Part shown: positions 2,321-53,563 of the stretch, piece by piece
Layout of the letters: the number at the start of each line of letters is the position of its first letter
Numbering within the stretch: the stretch's first letter is position 1
Source of the DNA: Rhodopseudomonas palustris
GTDB lineage: Bacteria > Pseudomonadota > Alphaproteobacteria > Rhizobiales > Xanthobacteraceae
Assembly (NCBI RefSeq): GCF_013415845.1
Contig: NZ_CP058907.1
Location: 3,720,001 to 3,784,000, forward strand
DNA length: 64,000 bases
Reading direction: 5' to 3'
Made by a program: the position numbers and the translations under genes
Notes under the pieces: generated by a model
What the model was told of the DNA's origin: nothing
The model's database searches: none
The model's input: the letters and a program-made list of their open reading frames with translations, nothing else

Positions 2321-2626
2321 GGTGGGTCTCCTTCAAGAGGCGGTTCGAAATTCGCTTGATCCGAACGCGGGGCCGGAGCGGCCGGGTGCTCGATCACGGT
2401 GCCAACCCTAGATCCGCGGCACTGAACCGCACCTGACGGCCGCCGATGGCTTCCGTTCATCAGCATGAATTGTTGGTCATGCACGCTGGCACCGCGCTGG
2501 CGCCACCGGCCTCCTCGCCTGCTCGCCTCGACACCCCTCGGCAGGTCGTATAGACCGGCGACGGTGAGAGGCGGCCGGCACCATGATCGCCTGTCAGCTG
2601 ACCGCCGCCGTCAGAGGCCGCTTTCG
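2321..2626. other. intergenic region, divergent promoters expected
   Basis: No convincing gene is seen. The region must carry the promoters of the histidine-rich protein (leftward) and NAD kinase (rightward). The NAD kinase frame stays open from 2465 but that part lacks a ribosome site and family similarity. Confidence 0.4.
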
Positions 2627-3451
2627 ATGAGCACGTTCGCGCGGCAAGGCCGCGACCCTTCGCCCCGCCCCGCATCGCCGCGCATCGCGACCGACCGCAT
2701 CGCCTTCGTCGCCTCCACCAGCGCCGAGGCGCAGGCCGCGATGGCACAGCTGGTGCAGCTCTACGGCAATGCCGAGCCGCACGAGGCCGATGTCGTGGTC
2801 GCGCTCGGGGGCGACGGCCTGATGCTGCAGACGCTGCATCAGCAGATGCACAGCGGCAAGCCGATCTACGGCATGCATCGCGGCACCGTCGGCTTCCTGA
2901 TGAACGAGTATTCGACGGTCGATCTGCGCGCCCGCCTCGCCGCCGCGCGCGAGACCGTGATCCATCCGCTATTGATGCGCGCCACCGACATCTACGGCGA
3001 GGTGCACATCCATCACGCCATCAACGAGGTCTCGCTGTTTCGCCAGAGCCATCAGGCCGCGCGGCTGCGGATCTCGATCGACGAGCGCGAGCGGATGAGC
3101 GAGCTGGTCGCCGACGGCATCATGGTCGCGACCCCGGCGGGCTCCACCGCCTACAATCTGTCGGCGCAGGGACCGATCTTGCCGATCAATGCCCAGCTGC
3201 TGGCGCTGACCCCGATCTCGGCGTTCCGCCCGCGCCGCTGGCGCGGCGCGCTGCTGCCCGACACCGCCTACGTGGTGATCGACGCGCTCGAAGTCGACAA
3301 GCGCCCGGTCGCCGCCGTCGCCGACCACGACGAAGCCCGCGACGTCCGCCGCGTCGAAGTGATTTCCGACAAGACCATCGCGATGCGGATGCTGTTCGAT
3401 CCGGGCCACAGCCTGGAAGAGCGGATTCTGAGCGAGCAGTTTGGGTACTAA
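2627..3451 (+). CDS. nadK: NAD kinase
   Basis: This 274-residue protein phosphorylates NAD to NADP in the cytosol. It carries the family hallmarks: [13 protein letters not shown] (GGDG nucleotide motif, about residues 60-70), the [13 protein letters not shown] loop, INEVSLFR, and the [17 protein letters not shown] segment that binds NAD. The C-terminal part [18 protein letters not shown] is typical of alphaproteobacterial members. The ATG at 2627 was chosen because AGAGG lies nine bases upstream and the protein then begins close to DRIAFVAS, the usual first strand. It stands alone. Confidence 0.93.
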
Positions 3452-3513
3452 GCCCGCCGGCTCGCTACTTGCGCGCAGCCTGAGGTGACTACCCGCCTTA
3501 CACCTCTGTCGAG

Positions 3514-3549
3514 ATTCCGGGTTCGCGAGCGTTGCTCGCGCCCCGGAAT
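3514..3549. repeat. REP-like palindrome, GC-rich family
   Basis: An inverted repeat framed by ATTCCGG and CCGGAAT with an inner GCGAGC/GCTCGC arm. The same unit recurs at 4505-4540, 17875-17914 and 17949-17989, in both orientations, always between genes. It resembles dispersed intergenic REP elements. Confidence 0.7.
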
Positions 3550-3621
3550 GACGTGGGGAGAGGCCGCGCGGTGCAACTCCTGTTGCCGTCCCTGAATAGT
3601 TGCGGGTCTAGCCGCATCCCG

Positions 3622-4326
3622 TTACACCGCCCGCGTCAGGCCGCCGTCCACCCGGATGTTCTGCCCGGTGATGTAGGCGGCGCCGTCGGAGGCGAGGAAG
3701 GCGATGGTGGCGGCGATTTCGGCGCTGGTGCCGTAGCGCTTCATCGGCACCGTGTCGCGGCGCTGTTCGGTGGCCGGCAGGCTGTCGATCCAGCCGGGCA
3801 GCACGTTGTTCATCCGGACGTTGTCGGCGGCGTAGTGGTCGGCGAAGATCTTGGTGTAGGCGGCGAGCCCGGCCCGCGCCACCGCCGAGGTCGGAAACAT
3901 CGCGCTCGGCTCGAACGCCCAGGCGGTCGAGATGTTGATGATGGCGCCGGCCTTCTGCTGCAGCATGATCGGCGCCACCAGCCGCGTCGCGCGGACAACG
4001 TTGAGGAAATAGACGTCGAGCCCCTGATGCCACTGCTCGTCGGTGATCTCGAGGATCGGCGCGCGCGGGCCGTGGCCGGCGCTGTTGACCAGCACATCGA
4101 TGCGGCCCCACTGCGCCATCGCCTGATCGACCAGGCGCCTCAGATCGTCGTTCGACTGGTTCGATCCGGTGACGCCGAAGCCGCCGAGCTCGCGCGCCAG
4201 CGCTTCACCCTTGCCAGACGACGACAGCACCGCGACGCGGAAGCCGTCCGCGGCCAGCCGGCGCGCCGCCGCAGCTCCCATGCCGCTACCGCCCGCGGTG
4301 ATCAGGGCTACTTTGTCGACTGCCAT
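3622..4326 (-). CDS. SDR-family protein lacking the YxxxK catalytic pair
   Basis: The 234-residue product is a Rossmann-fold short-chain dehydrogenase/reductase: GGSGMG cofactor loop near residue 12, NSAG at 81-84, the INIST strand with Ser133, and the C-terminal GQNIRVDGGLT. The canonical Tyr and Lys are missing: aligned to the usual YxxxK-AGL segment, residues 147-151 read S-A-V-A-R followed by AGLAAYTK. It may use a different mechanism or be a binding protein. The start at 4326 has GGAGG six bases upstream; a longer frame to 4431 has no support. It is not in an operon, and the substrate is unknown. Confidence 0.8.
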   Translation of the reverse strand: MAVDKVALITAGGSGMGAAAARRLAADGFRVAVLSSSGKGEALARELGGFGVTGSNQSNDDLRRLVDQAMAQWGRIDVLVNSAGHGPRAPILEITDEQWHQGLDVYFLNVVRATRLVAPIMLQQKAGAIINISTAWAFEPSAMFPTSAVARAGLAAYTKIFADHYAADNVRMNNVLPGWIDSLPATEQRRDTVPMKRYGTSAEIAATIAFLASDGAAYITGQNIRVDGGLTRAV

Positions 4327-6981: not shown

Positions 6982-8151
6982 CTACGCCGCGACCGGCGCG
7001 TAGCGCCAGCTGGCTTCTTCGGCGATCACTTCGTCGCGCAGCGCGGCGGCTTCTTCGCGGGCGAATTCGGTGGCGAAGCGGCGCAGCAGGATCAACAGCG
7101 GACCGGCCGCATCCGGATCGGTCTCGCACTGGGTCAACACCCGCTCGACCATGCGGCGGCGGAGCCGTGCGGCGCTGGATTCATTGGCGACGAAGCCGAT
7201 CTCACGCTCGGCGGCGAGCGCGGCGCGGAACGCCGGGAAGACGGTTTCCGGCAGCCCGGCGCGGCCGAGCAGCGCATTGAGCGAAGCGCGGCCGCCGTCG
7301 GCGAGCAGCGCCGCGACCCGCGCCGGCGCAGTGCCGGAGAGCTCGGCGAGCGCGTGTTCGACCAGCAGGAGATTGCCGGATAGCAGCGCGCGCAGGATCA
7401 GTCCCGCGGTCAGCGTGCGGGTCTCGCACAGATGCCGCATCAACGCCGCCATGTCGGCGCCGCGGGCGCGCGCCGCGATCGCGATGGTGGAGCGATCCAT
7501 CGCCTCGCCGGTTGCGCGCGCGGCGCGGTCGGCGCTGAGCCAGCCGCGCGCCACCACGAATTGCTGCAAGGTGTCGGACAGCTTCGCCACCAGCGCCAGC
7601 CGCGTCGCCGCCGGCAGATCGGGCAGCGCCAGCATCGACTCGCGGATCGCGGCGAGATGGCCGTGGCGCTCGACGATGCGGTCCCAGGAGAACGGCGCCA
7701 GTTCGGCGTGCGGGTTTTCGATCAGCTCCAGCGCTGCGGCGGGTGAGCCGACCTCGGCGATCGCCGCGCACACCGCGGCGGGCAGTTGGAAACGCCGCGC
7801 CACCGCGCATTGCACGGCGTTGTCACCGGTGGCGACGATGTCGACCAGATCGGCATCGAGCAAGAGCGGCGAGAATTCCAGCACCGGCAGCGCCACCGAG
7901 GCCTGATCGGAAGCGAGTGCGCGCACGATCGTCGGCGGGGCGTCGGGATGGGATGCGAACACTTCGGCGATCGCCTGCCGCACCTGGGCAGCGGGATCAT
8001 CCAGCATCAGCAGCAGCGCGCCTTCGGCGGCGATGCGGTCGTCGATCGTGAGATCGGAAATCAACCAGGCGCGGGCGAGAGCGCGGGTGGCTTCGGCACG
8101 TTCGCCGGCCGGTGCGTGACGGATCCAACTGATGAACTGCCGAACAATCAT
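6982..8151 (-). CDS. DUF2336 family protein
   Basis: The 389-residue, alanine-rich, all-helical protein matches the alphaproteobacterial DUF2336 family: HEAT-like repeats from about residue 20 (DDRIAAEGALLLMLDDPAAQVRQAIAEVFA) and a conserved ending with ETDPDAAGPLLILLRR. No membrane segment or catalytic motif is seen. Family members in Caulobacter-type bacteria are linked to cell-cycle or stress signalling. Here it lies opposite a receiver/Hpt pair, and two CtrA-like motifs precede it. Confidence 0.8.
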   Translation of the reverse strand: MIVRQFISWIRHAPAGERAEATRALARAWLISDLTIDDRIAAEGALLLMLDDPAAQVRQAIAEVFASHPDAPPTIVRALASDQASVALPVLEFSPLLLDADLVDIVATGDNAVQCAVARRFQLPAAVCAAIAEVGSPAAALELIENPHAELAPFSWDRIVERHGHLAAIRESMLALPDLPAATRLALVAKLSDTLQQFVVARGWLSADRAARATGEAMDRSTIAIAARARGADMAALMRHLCETRTLTAGLILRALLSGNLLLVEHALAELSGTAPARVAALLADGGRASLNALLGRAGLPETVFPAFRAALAAEREIGFVANESSAARLRRRMVERVLTQCETDPDAAGPLLILLRRFATEFAREEAAALRDEVIAEEASWRYAPVAA

Positions 8152-46052: not shown

Positions 46053-46673
46053 ATGTCGGGCAACAGGGGATTTCGGGGGCTTGCGGTGATTGCCGCCGTC
46101 GTCGCACTGACCGCGACGGCGCAAGCCGAAGACAGGGTTCGCTACGCCAGCGTCGGCGACGAGACGCGTGCACCGATCGGCTGGATCGAGTTCTGCTCGG
46201 ACAATCCGGTGGAATGCCGCGGCAGCCGCAGCCAGGCACGGGACATCGTGCTGACGCAGACTGCTTGGCAGGATCTACTGAAAGTCAATCGCTGGGTCAA
46301 CGACACCATCAAGCCGCTGACCGACATGGACCACTGGGGCGTGATCGAAAAGTGGTCACTGCCGAGCGACGGTTACGGCGATTGTGAAGACTACGTACTG
46401 CTGAAGCGCAAGATGCTGATCGACGCCGGCTGGCCGCGCGAAGCGCTGCTGATCACCGTGGTCCGCGACAAGAAGAACGAAGGTCACGCGGTGCTGACGG
46501 TGAAGACCGACAAGGGCGAGTTCATCCTCGACAACCAGAACGAGGAAGTCGTCGCCTGGACCGAGACTGGCTACCGCTTCGTCAAGCGACAGTCGCAGAG
46601 CGATCCCAATGCCTGGGTCGCACTCGGCGATGGTCGCCCGGCAATCGCAACCGCCAGCGCCAAGCAGCGCTGA
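46053..46673 (+). CDS. LapG-like periplasmic cysteine protease (transglutaminase-like, C93)
   Basis: The 206-residue protein has a signal peptide (to TAQAED) and the bacterial transglutaminase-like cysteine protease fold, with Cys111 in DGYGDCEDYVLLK, His145 in EGHAVLTV and Asp160 in FILDNQ. LapG proteins cut the N-terminus of giant adhesins under c-di-GMP control through LapD. A PilZ gene lies upstream, but no lapD or adhesin gene is in the window; some relatives instead stand alone in rhizobia. A strong terminator follows, and the decayed element is inserted there. Confidence 0.88.
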   Translation: MSGNRGFRGLAVIAAVVALTATAQAEDRVRYASVGDETRAPIGWIEFCSDNPVECRGSRSQARDIVLTQTAWQDLLKVNRWVNDTIKPLTDMDHWGVIEKWSLPSDGYGDCEDYVLLKRKMLIDAGWPREALLITVVRDKKNEGHAVLTVKTDKGEFILDNQNEEVVAWTETGYRFVKRQSQSDPNAWVALGDGRPAIATASAKQR

Positions 46674-46745
46674 GCCTCAGACGCCCATAGGAGAAACGCG
46701 ACCCGGTCGAATCCCCACCCCTCCCCGTCCCAGACCGGATCGTGC

Positions 46746-46785
46746 GCGGCCAGCCTTCCCCCAAAGGCTGGCCGCACCCCGTTTT
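46746..46785 (+). terminator. intrinsic terminator of LapG-like gene
   Basis: A perfect twelve-base stem (GCGGCCAGCCTT / AAGGCTGGCCGC) with a six-base loop, followed by ACCCCGTTTT, 72 bases after the stop codon. Its right arm is the start of the left direct repeat. Confidence 0.8.
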
Positions 46786-46790
46786 GGTGC
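46758..46790. repeat. left direct repeat (attL-like)
   Basis: A 33-base segment beginning CCCCCAAAGGCTGGCCGC and ending CGTTTTGGTGC. It matches 52921-52952 with one single-base gap and two substitutions. It includes the right arm of the LapG-like gene terminator. Confidence 0.7.
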
Positions 46791-48597
46791 CTTGACAGTG
46801 CTGATTCTATTGGGCTTTCGAGATACCGACATGTCGCTATCGTGCAGAACCTATCGCGAGCCGCGCGGGTCGAGGCGTGGAAAATCCGTAGAATTTGTTC
46901 GTGCTCGGTCCCATGCGAGCCAGAACACGCACCACGTCACACGCGCGAAATCCGTCTATCCAACTTTGCTAACGGGCCCGGTCAATGCCGATGATCCCTC
47001 TGGAGACTTACGACACTCCATGTCGCTTGACCAAGTCCTAAGTCTAGCCTTGCTAGCTGAAATTCCGTCGACCACGACTGAATATGATGTAGCCCTCTCG
47101 GATCGTATTATCTTGATCGGATGGGTGTAGACTTGGAACGGATAGTTCGTGAGTTTCGGCTCTGCGCCGCCGAGATTTCGATCGGCTCGGCCGGTCGCCT
47201 AACGCCGCCAAGGTCTCACGCGAGACTTCTCGTGGCCGCCGCCCGCTCACATATGAATTTATCAATCCAAACGGAATGCGATAGGCAAGTGCAATCATCC
47301 AGACAATGACTTAGCCTAATAGCTTAAGTAATTCATTGACCAAGCATACTGGCGAACGCACATCTCTGCGGTATCAGTCCGATAGAGACTTCGCGTTTGC
47401 CAGATCGGCACCTATGAAAGGCTATGAGATGGCCGCTCACCGTTTCTGCCGTCGTCCAGATGGAACGGCTAGGCTCGCCGAGCCGCCCTTCTGCTGATGC
47501 TCGCCATGCAAGGCGCTAGCGCACTTGTGGTCATGAGCGCGAGACCCTGTTCGCACTTCGGCGCATCGATCCAGTAAACAATTGTTACCGCGTCATAGGG
47601 CTCGGCATCGATATTGGATCGACTGGACGGCAGTTGCGCCGAGCAACACTGACGGAGTTCAAGACCGCCTGAAGCTCTACAGCGAAGATCCGCACGCGTC
47701 ATCGCAACGATCAACAACAACCTGCCACCATGGAAGGATCGAAGTCCGTGTCCGTGCGTGCGCCCGGCGGCGCTGGCTGGGCTCCCCCGCCTGTTCGCCG
47801 TCGGCGGGCGCTGACGATGACCGGGAGTACGGCGTTCCACGATTCGGTCGAATTGCGAAAATGGTAACGCTCGGGACGCAGCGCGAAGCAAGACACTACA
47901 TTGTCGCTCTGCCCACAGCCACTCCGGGCCGACGATCTTCGCGGATCGGTTTGCTGCTGACGCTGTCGCGAAACCGACTACCTCCGGCGCCACGGCTGGC
48001 CAAACGCAGACGCCCGCGGGACGAAGCAGGCCGCAAACACAATCAGCGGCATGCAATCCAATCTAAACCAACAAGAATTCCACAAACGTGTACACTCTAA
48101 CTTGAGCAATCGTACGCGCCTCTTGTGGGCGCAGTAGCTAGGACCATGCAAGACGCCAGGCAGATAAGCACGATCGGCATCTTCATGGCACGGACGTGTG
48201 GTGATGTGCCTCAATTTCATTTCGAACGCTACGTTAGGCGGATTAGCCGCCGCACGAAGAAGCGCGGATCTACTTGCGACAATCTGCGCTATCCATACAA
48301 AACTCGCCGCAATATTCGATCGAAACCACATTATATGGATTGATTCACTTCCTCCATCATGGGCACAAATCGAATAATAGCCCGCATCGTCAACGTATTC
48401 ACACTGATGGCGCCCGCAGAGAACCGATGGATGCTCCACTCGGGCCCTTGCGTAAACCGGTCGACTTGGGCAGCGGGGCGGTAACGGTCACGTCTGCCTA
48501 TCAAGAAAGTTGTCGAGCTTCGCTACCGATTACCAATCTGCGGACAGTATTTAGACACTAATTTAGCGCTGACAAACAGCCGATTCATCTCAAGGTC
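46791..48597. other. non-coding or unrecognisable part of the element
   Basis: About 1.8 kb without a frame that I can support. Open frames such as 47469-48056 (minus) have poor composition, no ribosome site and no motif. The A+T content is clearly above that of the core DNA. Treat it as eroded foreign sequence. Confidence 0.5.
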
Positions 48598-48883
48598 TCA
48601 CTCTGGCACGACCCAGCCGCCTTGCCCCGGTCCCAAAGGGTGAGAAATCCAATCGCTATGCCGAACAGCCGCGCCAATCACCGACGGGACCTTGCCGAGC
48701 AGTCGCGACGCAAGGATGAACGAAATGCTGCATTTCGGCGGCTCTATACCCTGCGGGATGCACGCTCCCGACACACCAGGGTTTCCGGCCGGGCATGGGC
48801 GATGCGCTGATCGGTGCGATCGACCAGGAACGTACGTTGCACATCCGTTAGGCGGTCGAGAAAGCGGACCGGCCATTGCATTT
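48598..48883 (-). pseudogene. fragmented small gene of the element
   Basis: An ATG after GAGGAA starts MQWPVRFLDRLTDVQR... and runs to a stop near 48747; another frame then reads on (PPKCSISFILASRLLGKVPSV). The two parts look like one frameshifted gene just after the secreted protein. The family is not recognised. Confidence 0.35.
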
Positions 48884-48889
48884 CCTCTA

Positions 48890-49168
48890 TTACTTGCTGC
48901 CCCGGCCGCACAGCCGCTTGCCGGCGGCGTTGATCAGATCGAGACGCAGCTTGGTATCCCGCCTGTCGTCGCGCGACCACCGTAATGACCCGCCCTGGCG
49001 GTTCATAACGTCGCACAAGCCAACGGTGGATCTCGCCGGCCGCGTCGTCTCGCAAGTCAGCTCGACATACCCGAAGGTGGCCCCGCGGCATTTGATAGCT
49101 GCGGCGTCAGTTGGCACGGCCGGGACTGGCCCGGCCAATGCCAGTGCCGCGAGGATCGCGGATCGCAT
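48890..49168 (-). CDS. small secreted protein of the phage lysis module
   Basis: The 92-residue product has a signal peptide (MRSAILAALALAGPVPAVPT) and a mature part with three to four cysteines (IKCRGATFGYVELTCETT, GLCDVMN, KRLCGRG). Its start overlaps the preceding gene stop (TGATG). The position behind holin- and lysin-like remnants is where spanin or lysis accessory genes lie, but the sequence gives no firm family. It is apparently intact. Confidence 0.5.
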   Translation of the reverse strand: MRSAILAALALAGPVPAVPTDAAAIKCRGATFGYVELTCETTRPARSTVGLCDVMNRQGGSLRWSRDDRRDTKLRLDLINAAGKRLCGRGSK

Positions 49169-49353
49169 CAGTCCCTCCGAAATTCCGTGTCCAGGCCATC
49201 GTCACTGCCCGGGCGCGCGGTCTGCCGCTCCCGTGCCTCCGCCACGGCGGCGAAGAGCTGAACACCCATCAGCTTCAGCCCGTCCGCCACCGCCTGGCCG
49301 TGGCCCTGCTCGTGTGCCACGTCCGCGTCCGCAGAAGCCTTGTACCGCGACAC
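49168..49353 (-). CDS. small protein of the phage lysis module
   Basis: The 61-residue reading from GTG 49353 (SRYKASADADVAHEQGHGQAVADGLKLMG...) is soluble and helical and is coupled to the next gene. It may be an intact small gene or the C-terminal part of the frameshifted gene just upstream. No family is recognised. Confidence 0.4.
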   Translation of the reverse strand: MSRYKASADADVAHEQGHGQAVADGLKLMGVQLFAAVAEARERQTARPGSDDGLDTEFRRD

Positions 49354-49354
49354 T

Positions 49355-49524
49355 AGGTCGATCAGGACTTGTTGCCGCCGGTGATGTCCAGTCGCTACCG
49401 AATAGCAAGCCGATGCCGGTGACGATCACGGCGGCGGCGGCGAACAGTTCGTTGCAGCGAAGCTACCAACCGACACACCGGTGAGCAGGTGACCGGCGGC
49501 GAGGGGCGTCCAGTTCGAAGACAT
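49355..49524 (-). pseudogene. holin-like membrane protein remnant
   Basis: ATG 49524 has GGGAG upstream and reads MSSNWTPLAAGHLLTGVSVG before shifting; in the next frame a hydrophobic stretch LFAAAAVIVTGIGLLFG follows. This gives a short protein with one or two helices split by a frameshift near 49445. The holin role is inferred from size, hydrophobicity and position next to the lysin. Confidence 0.45.
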
Positions 49525-49585
49525 TATTCGCTCCCTCGGTTGAGGTACGCGCCATCGATCGCCTGCGGCGCGCGGCGGGATCAGG

Positions 49586-50011
49586 TCAGGCTTCGGTGCT
49601 CAAGACTCGCGCATCGCTACGGACGAGTGGCGTCGAGGCAAATCCAATCTTAAGCAGCAGCACTTCCTTCGGCCACCAGAAGCCTTGATCGAGCCGGCAT
49701 GCGGGAACGGCGGGATGGACGCCTTGTCGCCTTGGTTGCCGCCGGGACTATGATGTTGCCGTGCAGGTCACGTCCGACGATGCAGACGATGTGACTACCG
49801 CGCGGACGGTTCACCGAAGGCCAGCGAAGTCAAGGGTCAGCGTCTCGGAGCCCTTCAGTACGACCTTGGTCAGGATGTGGTTGGCGAACAGCGCGCACCA
49901 GGCGATGGAATCGTTCTGGTAGGTCTTGGCCATGTCGCCGCCATCCGCGCGCGCCCATTCCGGAATCTGCGGATTGTCGGTGGCGCCGGGCGCCTCCTGT
50001 ACGTTGATGAG
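49586..50011 (-). pseudogene. CHAP/TIGR02594-type phage lysin remnant
   Basis: Three frames carry successive parts of one protein: PGATDNPQIPEWARADGGD and NDSIAWCALFANHIL (nucleophile Cys), then RGSHIVCIVGRDLHGNIIV (His), then GGNQGDKASIPPFPHAG (Asn) and GFWWPKEVL, ending at 49586. This order is the TIGR02594/CHAP peptidoglycan peptidase used by tailed phages and related elements. At least three frameshifts and a stop at 49811 break it. The first residues before 50011 are missing. Confidence 0.75.
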
Positions 50012-50374
50012 CTAGATCCCGCCCCTCTAGCTACAGAGCAGCCCTTGGAAGCTTGCTGCACGCTTCCAGGCCAGTCTCTGGCACGTTCGATCGCGGTTGC
50101 GGTGACCGTCACCACCTCGCCATCACCGAGAGCCCAGCGTGCCACTGGAGCATCTCCACGGCCGAATCGGTGGCCGAGCAGAAGTAACCGATCCGGCAGC
50201 GCGAGCTGCAGGACTTTGACGACTGATACGCTTGCGTCCCATGCGCAAGGGACCGCGAGCCGCCACGAGGGAGGGATGGTCATGGGATGGTCTCCAAAGG
50301 TTGGACGAAGGTCCCGGAAGTGCTAGTATTGCGCCGAAACTCGACGCCTTTGGTCAGGCCATGGAGCAACCAAA

Positions 50375-51043
50375 TTGATCGCCTCGAACGACGACGCTGA
50401 ACTCACTGCAATCCGAGAGCAATGCTCGAAAACCGGAAATTTTTCTTGGACGTCGCGCAAATATCAAGACGACATCCTGAGGTTCATTCGCAGCAATAGC
50501 CAATCCGGCAACTGCGTCATTGAAGTCGGGTGCTACAAAGGAGGACTAACGGCGCTTCTCGCAGCAACGTGCAGGAATCTGAACCTGCGCCTCTATTCGA
50601 TGGACATTTCTGCCGACGCAGTTTCGACTACGAAGACCCTGCTGAAGAATTTGAACCTGACAAAACATGCGGCAGTTGAGCAATCGACGTTCCCCGAGTT
50701 TGTGAGCAAGACTTCCTTCTTTCGTCGCTTCTCAGGTCGCGCGATCCTCTGCATCCTGGATGGTGATCATTCCTACAATGCCGTGTTGGCTGACATCAAA
50801 GCTGCGGAAGCTCTACGTTCACAACCGTATGCCCTCGCCTTCCATGATTACAGTCTTCGGCATCCAACAACCGATGAGCGCGTTAGAGACGCGATCGACG
50901 ACCATTTCGGAGCCTCGAAAACGCGAACTCTGATCGGCCAAGAGATGAATGGAGTTGGCCACGCGACCAAGGCTGCGCCGCAGGAAGACGGTCATTGGTG
51001 GGGCGTTCCCGGTTCAGAAGGCGCAATTCTGACGTTGCGCTGA
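50375..51043 (+). CDS. SAM-dependent methyltransferase (Methyltransf_24 type)
   Basis: The 222-residue enzyme has the SAM motif CVIEVGCYKGGLTALLAAT, the acidic strand LRLYSMDISADAV and AILCILDGDHSYNAVLADIKAAE with the DGDHxY signature of the TylF/Methyltransf_24 group, often acting on sugars or surface polymers. It is the only long intact gene in the decayed element, with lower GC than the core. The start is TTG 50375, seven bases after a GGAG; no ATG fits because an upstream ATG meets a stop. It is probably cargo acquired with the element. Confidence 0.8.
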   Translation: MIASNDDAELTAIREQCSKTGNFSWTSRKYQDDILRFIRSNSQSGNCVIEVGCYKGGLTALLAATCRNLNLRLYSMDISADAVSTTKTLLKNLNLTKHAAVEQSTFPEFVSKTSFFRRFSGRAILCILDGDHSYNAVLADIKAAEALRSQPYALAFHDYSLRHPTTDERVRDAIDDHFGASKTRTLIGQEMNGVGHATKAAPQEDGHWWGVPGSEGAILTLR

Positions 51044-51443
51044 CCCACGGCCGCGAAACGCTCAGGCGCGGTCTTTGTCACGCTTGCGCCTATGTTCAAT
51101 GGACCGCCCGCCGCTACGGGGGAGACGATAGTCATGGTGGCAGCCCTTTTTGTCTATTGGATGGACCGCGGCGGACGCACGAGTCGATTGAAGCCGCAAC
51201 GGCGCCGTCGTAACGGTCTCAGTTTTAAAGAATTTGAGGAGACAAACTTTCATGGCGTATAGCGAACCGCCCCGTAAGCTAGGCTCTACCGCGCAAACTC
51301 AACATCGAGACCGTCATTTTTGCAACGCTAGATGCCCGTTCCGCCCTTCGTTCGTCGGCAAACAGCGATCGATCGCTCGATCCGGCTAGTGACGACAATG
51401 ACGATGGAGCTATTCGAATCCATCCTACAGCAGGTCGCGGCAT

Positions 51444-51976
51444 GGCCGGAAGCCGGGCGTCATCTATCTGAACATGGACGACGAATCGACGATGGGCAAG
51501 CAGCCCGCGAAGCGTCTTGCGTTGATCAAGAACTACGGATTGGCTCATCTGTTCTACATCTAGACAAATTGCGAACTGATGAACAAACACAAGACCGGCG
51601 CGATCTTTGATAACGCGATTGGAAGCATGTTCTACGCGCGCGACGGCGCGACGAAGGAAGTCTACGAAGCCAGCCGAGTCCAATGCCACTCAAGACGCTG
51701 CCCCGGCTACGCGACAAGGCAAAATCACCGAAGAAAATCGCGCGTAAATACGTTCGAAATCCCGACAATGCCCAGGAAGTCCAAACCTACTTCGGCATCG
51801 TCTCCGACGACACAGTTTCGATTGATTGGACCAACAACAGCCTAGCCAAGTCTGGATGGGTATTTACCACACAGAGCGAGGCAAATCAGTTAGCCGCAAA
51901 GTCGATGGCTGCCCGTCCTCAAGAGCATGCTGGTAGTTCATTCATAAAAGTCGGATCGCCAGCCTGTTTAGATTAA
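51444..51976 (+). pseudogene. unassigned coding fragments of the element
   Basis: Several short frames have protein-like composition: VIYLNMDDESTMGKQPAK to a stop at 51561, MNKHKTGAIFDNAIGSM near 51579, and a 97-codon frame 51683-51976 (DNAQEVQTYFGIVSDD...). They may be parts of one or two broken genes. I cannot assign a function. Confidence 0.3.
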
Positions 51977-52152
51977 GCCTTGGCTCATGACGGACTGAAC
52001 ACAGACTTGATTACTGTCGCCCGACGCACATCAAATGGACGTAGCTTGGGTCGACACAGCGCCCCTAACGAAGGTGGCGGCGGCAACCTGGATGGAATCA
52101 TGCCGCCATTGGTCACTTCGATAAAATTGATCTTCTCAGCTGCTCGAACCTC

Positions 52153-52528
52153 CTACATACTCAAGCAAGCATAGTGGGATGATGCGAAGGGCGTCGAAAA
52201 CGTAATATTGTAGATGCCAGCGGAGGATCGCCCGACGCCGCTGACATTATAGGAAAGGTTCGCGCCCCCTGATCCGCTGAGCTCAACCGCGGTCACTATC
52301 ATGATCGCGCTGGCTGGCAGGGCTGATTGTTTTGTTGTCGAAGATCCCGCCTGCTGGTCTGATTTGCTGCGAGGTCAGCCCGATCGTGACGGTGCCGGCC
52401 GACGTGATCGGATTGGTGCCTGAAACTGTGATGCCGGAACCGGCGTCAAACCGACGCTTGTCACCTAACACGATCGCCGCCGCCACACTCGGTCGTGCTG
52501 ATCTCGCGCCAGCACGACGCAATGCCAT
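52153..52528 (-). pseudogene. phage tail-fibre remnant
   Basis: The frame from 52528 contains AGSGITVSGTNPITSAGTV, a repeat common in phage tail fibres. After a frameshift near 52290 the other frame gives NLSYNVSGVGRSSAGIYNI and TFSTPFASSHYACLSM, the usual tip-domain ending, with a stop at 52153. It is broken by at least one frameshift and lacks its N-terminal part. Confidence 0.65.
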
Positions 52529-52569
52529 CGTATCGATCCGGGCACCGTGAAGCTAAGCTGGATCAATGC

Positions 52570-52900
52570 CGGGAAGTGCACACCTTCGCAGACGGCGCGA
52601 CCGCCGGCAAGGCCTTCCCTTTCGGTCGCGGCAGCGTCCTCAAAGACCGCCTAATCTCGGCCACAACGGCAGCCACGGGTCGACTTCCATACCTTCTGCC
52701 ACACGTGGACAACCTGGGTACAACGCTATGGCCGCGCTGACCTGCAGGGCTTGGTTGCTACCGGGCATTGGCGTGATCCGCACTTACCCGCCCGCTACGC
52801 TTACGCGGCAGGCATGCGAGAAATGGATCCGAGTCGACGCCTGCCGAGGCCACATGGCAAGACCTTGGACAGCCGACCTGATCACCTTTCAAGCCGTTGA
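52570..52900 (+). pseudogene. tyrosine recombinase (integrase) C-terminal remnant
   Basis: In the second half (52679-52900) the frame reads VDFHTFCHTWTTWVQRYG, LQGLVATGHWRDP and PARYAYAA, the HxxC-H-x-W and tyrosine boxes of a rhizobial phage-type integrase; the nucleophile Tyr would be at 52796. The preceding frame 52570-52678 carries FADGATAGKAFPFGRGSVL, shifted by one. It ends 21 bases before the right repeat, the usual place of an int gene. The N-terminal half is missing. Confidence 0.6.
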
Positions 52901-52920
52901 TACTGCTTGCTGCCGTCTCG

Positions 52921-52952
52921 CCCCCAAGGCTGGCCGCCCCCCGTTTTGGGGC
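52921..52952. repeat. right direct repeat (attR-like)
   Basis: A 32-base copy of 46758-46790. The left stem arm of the terminator is not present beside this copy, so only the first copy makes a hairpin. Confidence 0.7.
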
Positions 52953-52975: not shown

Positions 52976-53563
52976 TCAGGGCTCGTCGAGCACGCGTAGC
53001 ATCGCCTCCTTGGTGCGATTCTTCAGCATTTCGAGCTTGGCCTTGACGTCATTAAGCGCCTCGGCGTCGAAGTCGCTGAAGATATACGCGTGCAAGGCCT
53101 CCCAGCGCGGCGACAGACGGTCGATCTTGGTGCGCGCTTCATCGGACAGCGACATCAGCACCACGCGAGCATCTTCCGTCGAAGGCACCCGATTGAGCAG
53201 CCCCATCCGCTCCAGGATCTTGGTTTGGGTTGTCACAAAGGTCGAGACGGCGTGGATCTTGTGTGACACGTCGCCTACGGAAACGCCATTTCCCTGGTCC
53301 AGATCAGCGATGGCCATCAGAATCAGCCATTGCGATCCGCTGATCCCGAATAGCTTGGCCCAGGCGCGGCGCATGTCCTCAAGATTGTTGCTGATCGAGA
53401 CGAAATCCCAAATCACCTGATGCGACAGGCCGAAATCGCGATGCGCATACGCCTCTGAAACACTGGGCGGTTCCTCGGCCCGCTCCGCCTGCAGCGGCTG
53501 GCTCACCAACGACGGCCGCGTAACGGCTTCGTCGTGATGCTGCTCCCTAGTCCGATGCGGCAT
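52976..53563 (-). CDS. MarR-family regulator
   Basis: The 195-residue protein has a winged helix-turn-helix (VGDVSHKIHAVSTFVTTQTKILERMGLLNRVPSTEDARVV) between helical dimerisation parts and an extended N-terminus. Its closest pattern is that of MarR proteins sensing aromatic acids in Rhodopseudomonas, but no target gene is adjacent. ATG 53563 follows GGAGGGCG. It lies just outside the right end of the decayed element and is divergent from the porin gene. Confidence 0.87.
   Translation of the reverse strand: MPHRTREQHHDEAVTRPSLVSQPLQAERAEEPPSVSEAYAHRDFGLSHQVIWDFVSISNNLEDMRRAWAKLFGISGSQWLILMAIADLDQGNGVSVGDVSHKIHAVSTFVTTQTKILERMGLLNRVPSTEDARVVLMSLSDEARTKIDRLSPRWEALHAYIFSDFDAEALNDVKAKLEMLKNRTKEAMLRVLDEP

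Follow-up and report, generated by a model that had tools for sequence, protein, structure and literature searches.

Several described elements integrate into RNA genes. Prophages and islands in tRNA genes are reported to bring the 3′ part of the gene with them and so to restore it (PMC12884075, PMC2647930; Islander, PMC4383910). The Salmonella phage PhiW104 is described as attaching in the last 23 bp of a small RNA (sRNA) gene at the ryeA/ryeB locus, a site that is also internal to the RNA of the opposite strand; lysogeny reportedly alters the expression of both (PMC7380047). Pneumococcal phages are reported to integrate at the csRNA genes ccnC and ccnB and at ffs (PMC9764711, PMC8637289). 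Here we analyzed 64,000 nucleotides of Rhodopseudomonas palustris (contig NZ_CP058907.1, positions 3,720,001 to 3,784,000, forward strand; denoted the window), in which a 6.2-kb block separates a LapG-like gene from a gene for a MarR-family regulator. This block is very probably the relic of a temperate phage, or of an element derived from one, for which a tyrosine integrase used the terminator hairpin of a conserved predicted RNA as the insertion site; the RNA lies in the 3′ untranslated region (UTR) of the LapG-like gene. The repeats at its ends, the empty sites in relatives, an integrase remnant beside the right attachment (att) site, the four att sites of a related group of elements and the clade formed by their integrases are all read directly from sequence.

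The LapG-like gene (46053–46673, plus strand; BTLCP family, Pfam PF06035, E 1.4e-69) is present in all 16 genomes of the genus. In the window it is followed on the same strand by a terminator hairpin at 46746–46775 with exact 12-base arms (46746–46757 and 46764–46775), which folds at −31.3 kcal/mol (z −4.2). The original prediction held that direct repeats bracket the block and that the left one is the right arm of a perfect terminator hairpin. Both statements stand, although the gap placed in the earlier alignment is not needed: the loop, right arm and T's of the hairpin (46759–46790, plus strand; attL core) recur ungapped at 52921–52952 (plus strand; attR core), with 29 of 32 bases identical and a start-to-start distance of 6162 bases. 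The next-best 32-mer in the window matched at 21 of 32 positions. At the right copy there is no left arm, and the fold is no better than that of shuffled sequences (z −0.4). Searching the 5.32-Mb genome with the 26-base repeat core at up to three mismatches returned the two repeats and no other place; the 12-base right arm by itself occurred six times, three of them at the block. A dispersed terminator repeat was thus ruled out.

The MarR-family gene on the right flank (52976–53563, minus strand; identified by Pfam) lies near the LapG-like gene in 15 of the 16 genus genomes; in genome G013, a different frame follows the LapG-like gene. The uninterrupted junction with a single repeat copy that the original prediction expected in related strains was found three times. 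In the closest relative, G005, the LapG-like protein is 100% identical, the two gene matches stand 145 bp apart and there is one terminator copy; G006 and G015 have junctions of 149 and 147 bp, again with one copy each. Joined to each other, the flanks of the block match the G005 junction, the exception being a variable stretch of ∼30 bases immediately to the right of the hairpin. Two other strains, R. pentothenatexigens JA575 (G011) and Rhodopseudomonas sp. AAP120 (G014), carry inserts of 2.8 and 3.3 kb, respectively, between two core copies, both with integrase sequence. In G004, the left repeat is accompanied by the same left end and by an integrase remnant; a right repeat was looked for there and not found. 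An insert or remnant of this type thus occurs in four of the 16 genus genomes, and in several others the gap between the two genes holds unrelated frames. The block itself was absent from the 15 other genus genomes searched. Together with the integrase remnant beside the right repeat, the empty sites and joined flanks bear out site-specific insertion into a terminator. A gene of ∼440 residues (2339–3685 of locus L062 and 2975–4297 of L069) is common to the small elements of G011 and G014; its relatives are partly named ImmA/IrrE family, and it adjoins a gene of ∼183 residues that has no Pfam match. After the hairpin, the window (46776–46790), G004, G011 and the empty G005 have CACCCCGTT, and most relatives have CAACTTTTT; speculatively, CACCCCGTT may be the scar of an earlier occupation.

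Intact relatives of the element, found outside the genus, occupy the same terminator. An intact integrase stands beside the att site in G085 and in Rhodoplanes elegans DSM 11907, whereas that of the window is decayed; the layout, integrase gene and then att core, is the same. The R. elegans locus has the RNA followed by an element with a repeat period of 63,106 bp, a 63.1-kb prophage, with core copies at 7951, 8178 (past a gap of N's), 71284 and ∼134390. Four of its ten proteins scanned are portal, capsid, tape measure and tail tip; of structural genes the window shows a lysin remnant only. The R. elegans scaffold (NZ_NHSK01000074; loci L128 and L138) holds near-identical tandem copies with two differences in 13,716 bases compared, which reads as a double lysogen or an assembly effect. 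The attB site of G167, the attP sites of L149 and L150, and attL and attR of G085 have 22 bases in common (CTCCCCCAAGGCTGGCCGCACC), and their flanks are exchanged as expected from one crossover. End repeats, a site that is single-copy in relatives and an integrase beside the att site, by which a site-specific integrase element is recognized, are all present. A pattern search found copies of the site in at least 81 of the 296 family genomes, with more than one copy in four (G085, G094, G242 and G067); the number is a lower bound because the pattern missed the copies of the window and those of G011, G014 and G143. In G242, a different genus, a 2.3-kb insert with a 706-codon open frame lies between two copies of the terminator hairpin (L235; G242:C20:417300-421800), and a search of it gave no integrase match.

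These arrangements suggest how the element would have entered. Its own site would consist of the loop, right arm and T-tract of a host-type terminator, and the crossover would fall near the loop, its exact point being deduced. The resulting attL would combine the host left arm with the right arm and T's of the element, and attR an element flank with the original right half of the host. Since the host left arm pairs with the element right arm, attL would keep the terminator hairpin. Indeed, all 11 left-arm pairs form in the attL of the window, as they do in an empty site, whereas at most eight of the 11 can form in 17 of 20 element-side copies. With the left arm missing from those 17 copies, integration would rebuild an intact terminator from the host left arm and the right arm of the phage element, a simple rule that holds in most copies. 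The host RNA would in this way keep its terminator hairpin, by analogy with the restoration of tRNA by elements at tRNA sites. Both integration and excision would be carried out by the integrase, whose activity is presumed.

Inside the repeats, the guanine-plus-cytosine (GC) content is 58.1%, compared with 65.5% elsewhere in the window, and the longest stop-free stretch is 238 codons, against 358–928 in ten tiles of the same size, two of which overlap the block; the block is thus as low in GC and as poor in genes as had been described. Its left end (46791–46900) is the same as in G004 and G014 and has a tblastx match to L136. The C-terminal part of a tyrosine integrase, spread over more than one frame, lies at 52561–52873 (plus strand). 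Its identification rests on comparison with relatives: Pfam did not recognize the integrase fragments of the window, and PHROGs gave a match at E 0.015 only. Between this remnant and the right repeat, TTGATACTGCTTGC (52897–52910, plus strand) resembles TTGATATTGCT at the end of related elements and is a possible integrase binding site. The second arginine of the integrase HxxR motif is catalytic. In the remnant of the window it is replaced by cysteine (HTFCHT and similar; 52679–52690), a variant that also occurs in 14 of 85 related integrase loci, on both sides of the integrase tree (for example, L126, L143, L152, L153, L181 and L207); 13 of the 85 loci did not fit the motif pattern used.

The original prediction had also named lysin, tail fibre and holin remnants beside that of the integrase. 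As with the integrase, the lysin is borne out by relatives: the decayed gene at 49586–50285 (minus strand) is 70% identical in DNA to a sequence of G013, where the open reading frame (ORF) matches endolysin families. Tail fibre and holin found no backing, as ten inner fragments compared with Pfam and PHROGs gave no match better than E 0.02. An intact ORF at 50375–51043 (plus strand) encodes a methyltransferase (Methyltransf_24, Pfam E 2.3e-10, with homologues) and is probably cargo; a protein 99% identical to it occurs in another genome, so another strain may share the block. Compared by blastn with phages, the block gave nothing at E 0.01 and, at E up to 10, short pieces in 257 records (best E 0.1); with plasmids, its single match (3%) fell on an integrase gene carried by a Bradyrhizobium elkanii plasmid. 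A six-frame comparison of the inserts yielded many chance pieces among the matches listed.

With the integrase piece of G014 as query and a threshold of E 1e-20, relatives were found in 13 of the 296 family genomes. Two intact integrases were aligned, and searching with this alignment gave 24 loci from named genomes and a further 61 from IMG/VR contigs. The DNA past these 85 integrase matches held the terminator core in 21 cases, a related hairpin in two, a tRNA T-loop (a nine-base pattern) in 35 and neither in nine; 18 matches were followed by fewer than 120 bases. In 15 of the 21 core loci, the core lies 35–78 bases past the match. L160, with its core 487 bases away, was placed by hand in class S, as were L128, L136, L138 and L142, which have att copies elsewhere in the locus; the pattern for L155 and L156 was written specifically for them. 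In 2.0 million bases, with both strands counted, the core pattern occurred at nine other places: eight were att copies at the same elements and one was a chance match. In a maximum-likelihood tree of 66 of the 85 loci (rows with stops, shorter than 240 residues or identical were left out, as were the distant L147 and L148), a branch supported at 100/100 split 24 rows from 42. The 24-row side comprised 14 terminator loci, one related hairpin and nine short ones; the 42-row side comprised 28 tRNA loci, seven with neither and seven short ones. The short integrase piece of the window scored best with terminator-side members (76.6 bits; best tRNA-side score 63.5 bits). By this comparison, the terminator is a site used repeatedly by one clade of putative phage integrases. 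When rooted with an outgroup, the tree did not decide between terminator and tRNA as the older target; the terminator side was one group with a support of 0.839, and the tRNA side had 0.327. ARAGORN recognized a whole tRNA in five of the 16 tRNA-kind loci tried, either tRNA-Val(CAC) or tRNA-Thr(GGT), and among the tRNA-site sequences listed, many tRNA matches run from the anticodon arm to the CCA end, which is the counterpart of loop plus right arm.

The terminator is itself part of a conserved predicted RNA that lies in the LapG-like 3′ UTR; this refines the earlier interpretation of the locus. This RNA (46695–46789, plus strand) comprises a first hairpin (46697–46744) with a C-rich loop and, as the second, the terminator hairpin, the stem of which varies between genera. 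The loop contains a 22-base C-rich stretch just upstream of the terminator that is the same in all 16 genus genomes and occurs in 88 of the 296 family genomes, in single copy except in G088, which has two; the reversed control gave zero. Alignment A2 was built with MAFFT from 35 of 46 distinct sequences (47 loci; 11 near-copies were left out). In it, 96.6% of cells pair and nine of 23 pairs have two-sided changes, seven of them in the terminator, and one pair of the first hairpin is unpaired in 25 of the 35 sequences; RNAalifold returned the same structure minus this pair. The RNA of the window, one of the 35 building sequences, scored 107.3 bits with the resulting covariance model (R1).

Of 249 genomes searched across the order with this model, under strict filters and E 1e-4, 52 had one full-length match each, and 44 of these 52 genomes lie outside the family. 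The RNA lies directly 3′ of a BTLCP gene in all 20 loci fetched from these 44 (L211–L230) and in 32 of 32 RNA-bearing loci checked. When 31 sequences were fitted to the model, a procedure that leans towards the structure, 97.9% of cells paired and 19 of 22 pairs had two-sided changes; at most ten two-sided pairs arose when the partners were slid, and none of 500 shuffles reached as high. Neither the window locus nor the 17 loci scanned beyond it (16 of the 20 fetched order-level loci plus L090) matched a family of Rfam 15 above cut-off. Matches to mir-5681 and sR44 lay far below the cut-offs and were rejected. That the RNA is made and ends at the terminator hairpin is a prediction, and it may pair through its C-rich loop with G-rich ribosome-binding sites. 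The attB site lies in the 3′ end of this putative RNA, the position that defines a phage site in an sRNA gene of the PhiW104 type.

We weighed three other explanations. Because the flanking genes are convergent, each could have a like terminator of its own with no insertion having taken place; this is highly improbable, since the right copy is without a left arm and folds no better than shuffled sequence, relatives carry one copy at sites that are empty, the sequence is not dispersed in the genome and an integrase remnant adjoins the right copy. A composite block, made by successive elements at a hot spot or by recombined foreign DNA, with the outer repeats belonging to one element only, is a less remote but still rather unlikely origin. 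The left end and the integrase remnant fit the element family, but short pieces from the inside match G013, G001 and G012 at unrelated places, and inserts at the site vary between strains; yet a single pair of core copies is present, and as phages are mosaics anyway, mixed content needs no second insertion. Somewhat more plausible, though we do not favor it, is that the conserved structure is a mere terminator or mRNA-stability element of the LapG-like gene, in which case the attachment-site account would stand. Its constant position directly behind the BTLCP gene (32 of 32 and 20 of 20 loci) fits this, and a separate transcript with a promoter of its own is so far hypothetical. A plain terminator, however, needs neither the long unpaired loop, which is invariant in all 35 aligned sequences, nor a first hairpin that covaries separately from the terminator.

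Several observations weigh against insertion of a phage element by the proposed route. The attL and attR of G085 are on separate contigs, with attL at a contig end; the attB compared with them is that of a relative (G167), which belongs to the same genus group, and not that of G085 itself; and the att patterns were written after examples had been seen. The element-side copies of G014, R. elegans and L159 keep nine to ten of the 11 left-arm pairs, so the half-terminator design is not universal. Moreover, the T-tract at the window locus is weak (CCCCGTTTT), and the preference of the short window integrase piece for the terminator side is modest. We tentatively extend the phage-insertion reading, with considerable doubt, to the whole order: the terminator of the order-wide RNA would be a dedicated phage site, the clade would use its stem with the seven-base loop (TCCCCCA) as the sister group uses the tRNA anticodon arm, and lysogeny would retune termination and with it the LapG-like gene or the targets of the RNA. 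If this were true, lysogeny would swap the 3′ end of the RNA and thereby retune its termination. In either case, the RNA behind BTLCP genes, which is not listed in Rfam 15, merits study apart from the phage question. Since the terminator-site and tRNA-site integrases are close sisters, target switching becomes testable on close homologues, and a set of integrases with a predicted site is available in Rhodopseudomonas, Bradyrhizobium and Rhodoplanes.

A literature search, with most subscription papers out of reach, found no phage site at a BTLCP 3′ UTR and no RNA family there, nor the half-terminator design or the integrase clade. Among known RNAs, BjrC68 (Rfam RF02353), from the same bacterial group, is likewise small and has two hairpins. 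Identity with it was rejected: one of the 17 loci matched weakly (31.4 bits; cut-off 39), the window locus did not match, and BjrC68 lies at 300426 in the genome of the window. The alpha-r14/cuckoo RNA (NfeR1) also has a C-rich, strongly conserved unpaired motif that could pair with ribosome-binding sites, but as described (PMC10746234) it has three hairpins each with CCUCCUCCC, whereas here there are two, with CCCCACCCCUCCCCGUCCCA and UCCCCCA, and it was set aside. The Bradyrhizobium sRNA BjsR1 is reported as Northern-validated and conserved in Bradyrhizobium and Rhodopseudomonas (PMC5082802); the BTLCP-linked RNA may be identical to it.

Among known attachment sites, those in tRNA genes are close in that near relatives of the integrase stand beside tRNA-Val(CAC) and tRNA-Thr(GGT) in a similar layout; they differ in that a terminator and not a tRNA is restored here, and the integrases form a separate clade. 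The pneumococcal phages are similar in that integration, as described, creates hybrid RNA genes at both attL and attR, with the host promoter keeping the 5′ part of the RNA; at ccnC, however, the attachment site falls within the RNA and the RNA newly formed is altered, whereas at the BTLCP-linked locus the terminator hairpin is the core and the upstream part of the RNA stays as it was. PhiW104, in the account available, shares with this locus a phage site at the end of an sRNA gene, in another bacterial class and with another RNA. A well-documented RNA-terminator site is added to the few sRNA genes at which phages are known to attach: sites of this kind are already known, and that of the BTLCP-linked RNA is a variant of them.

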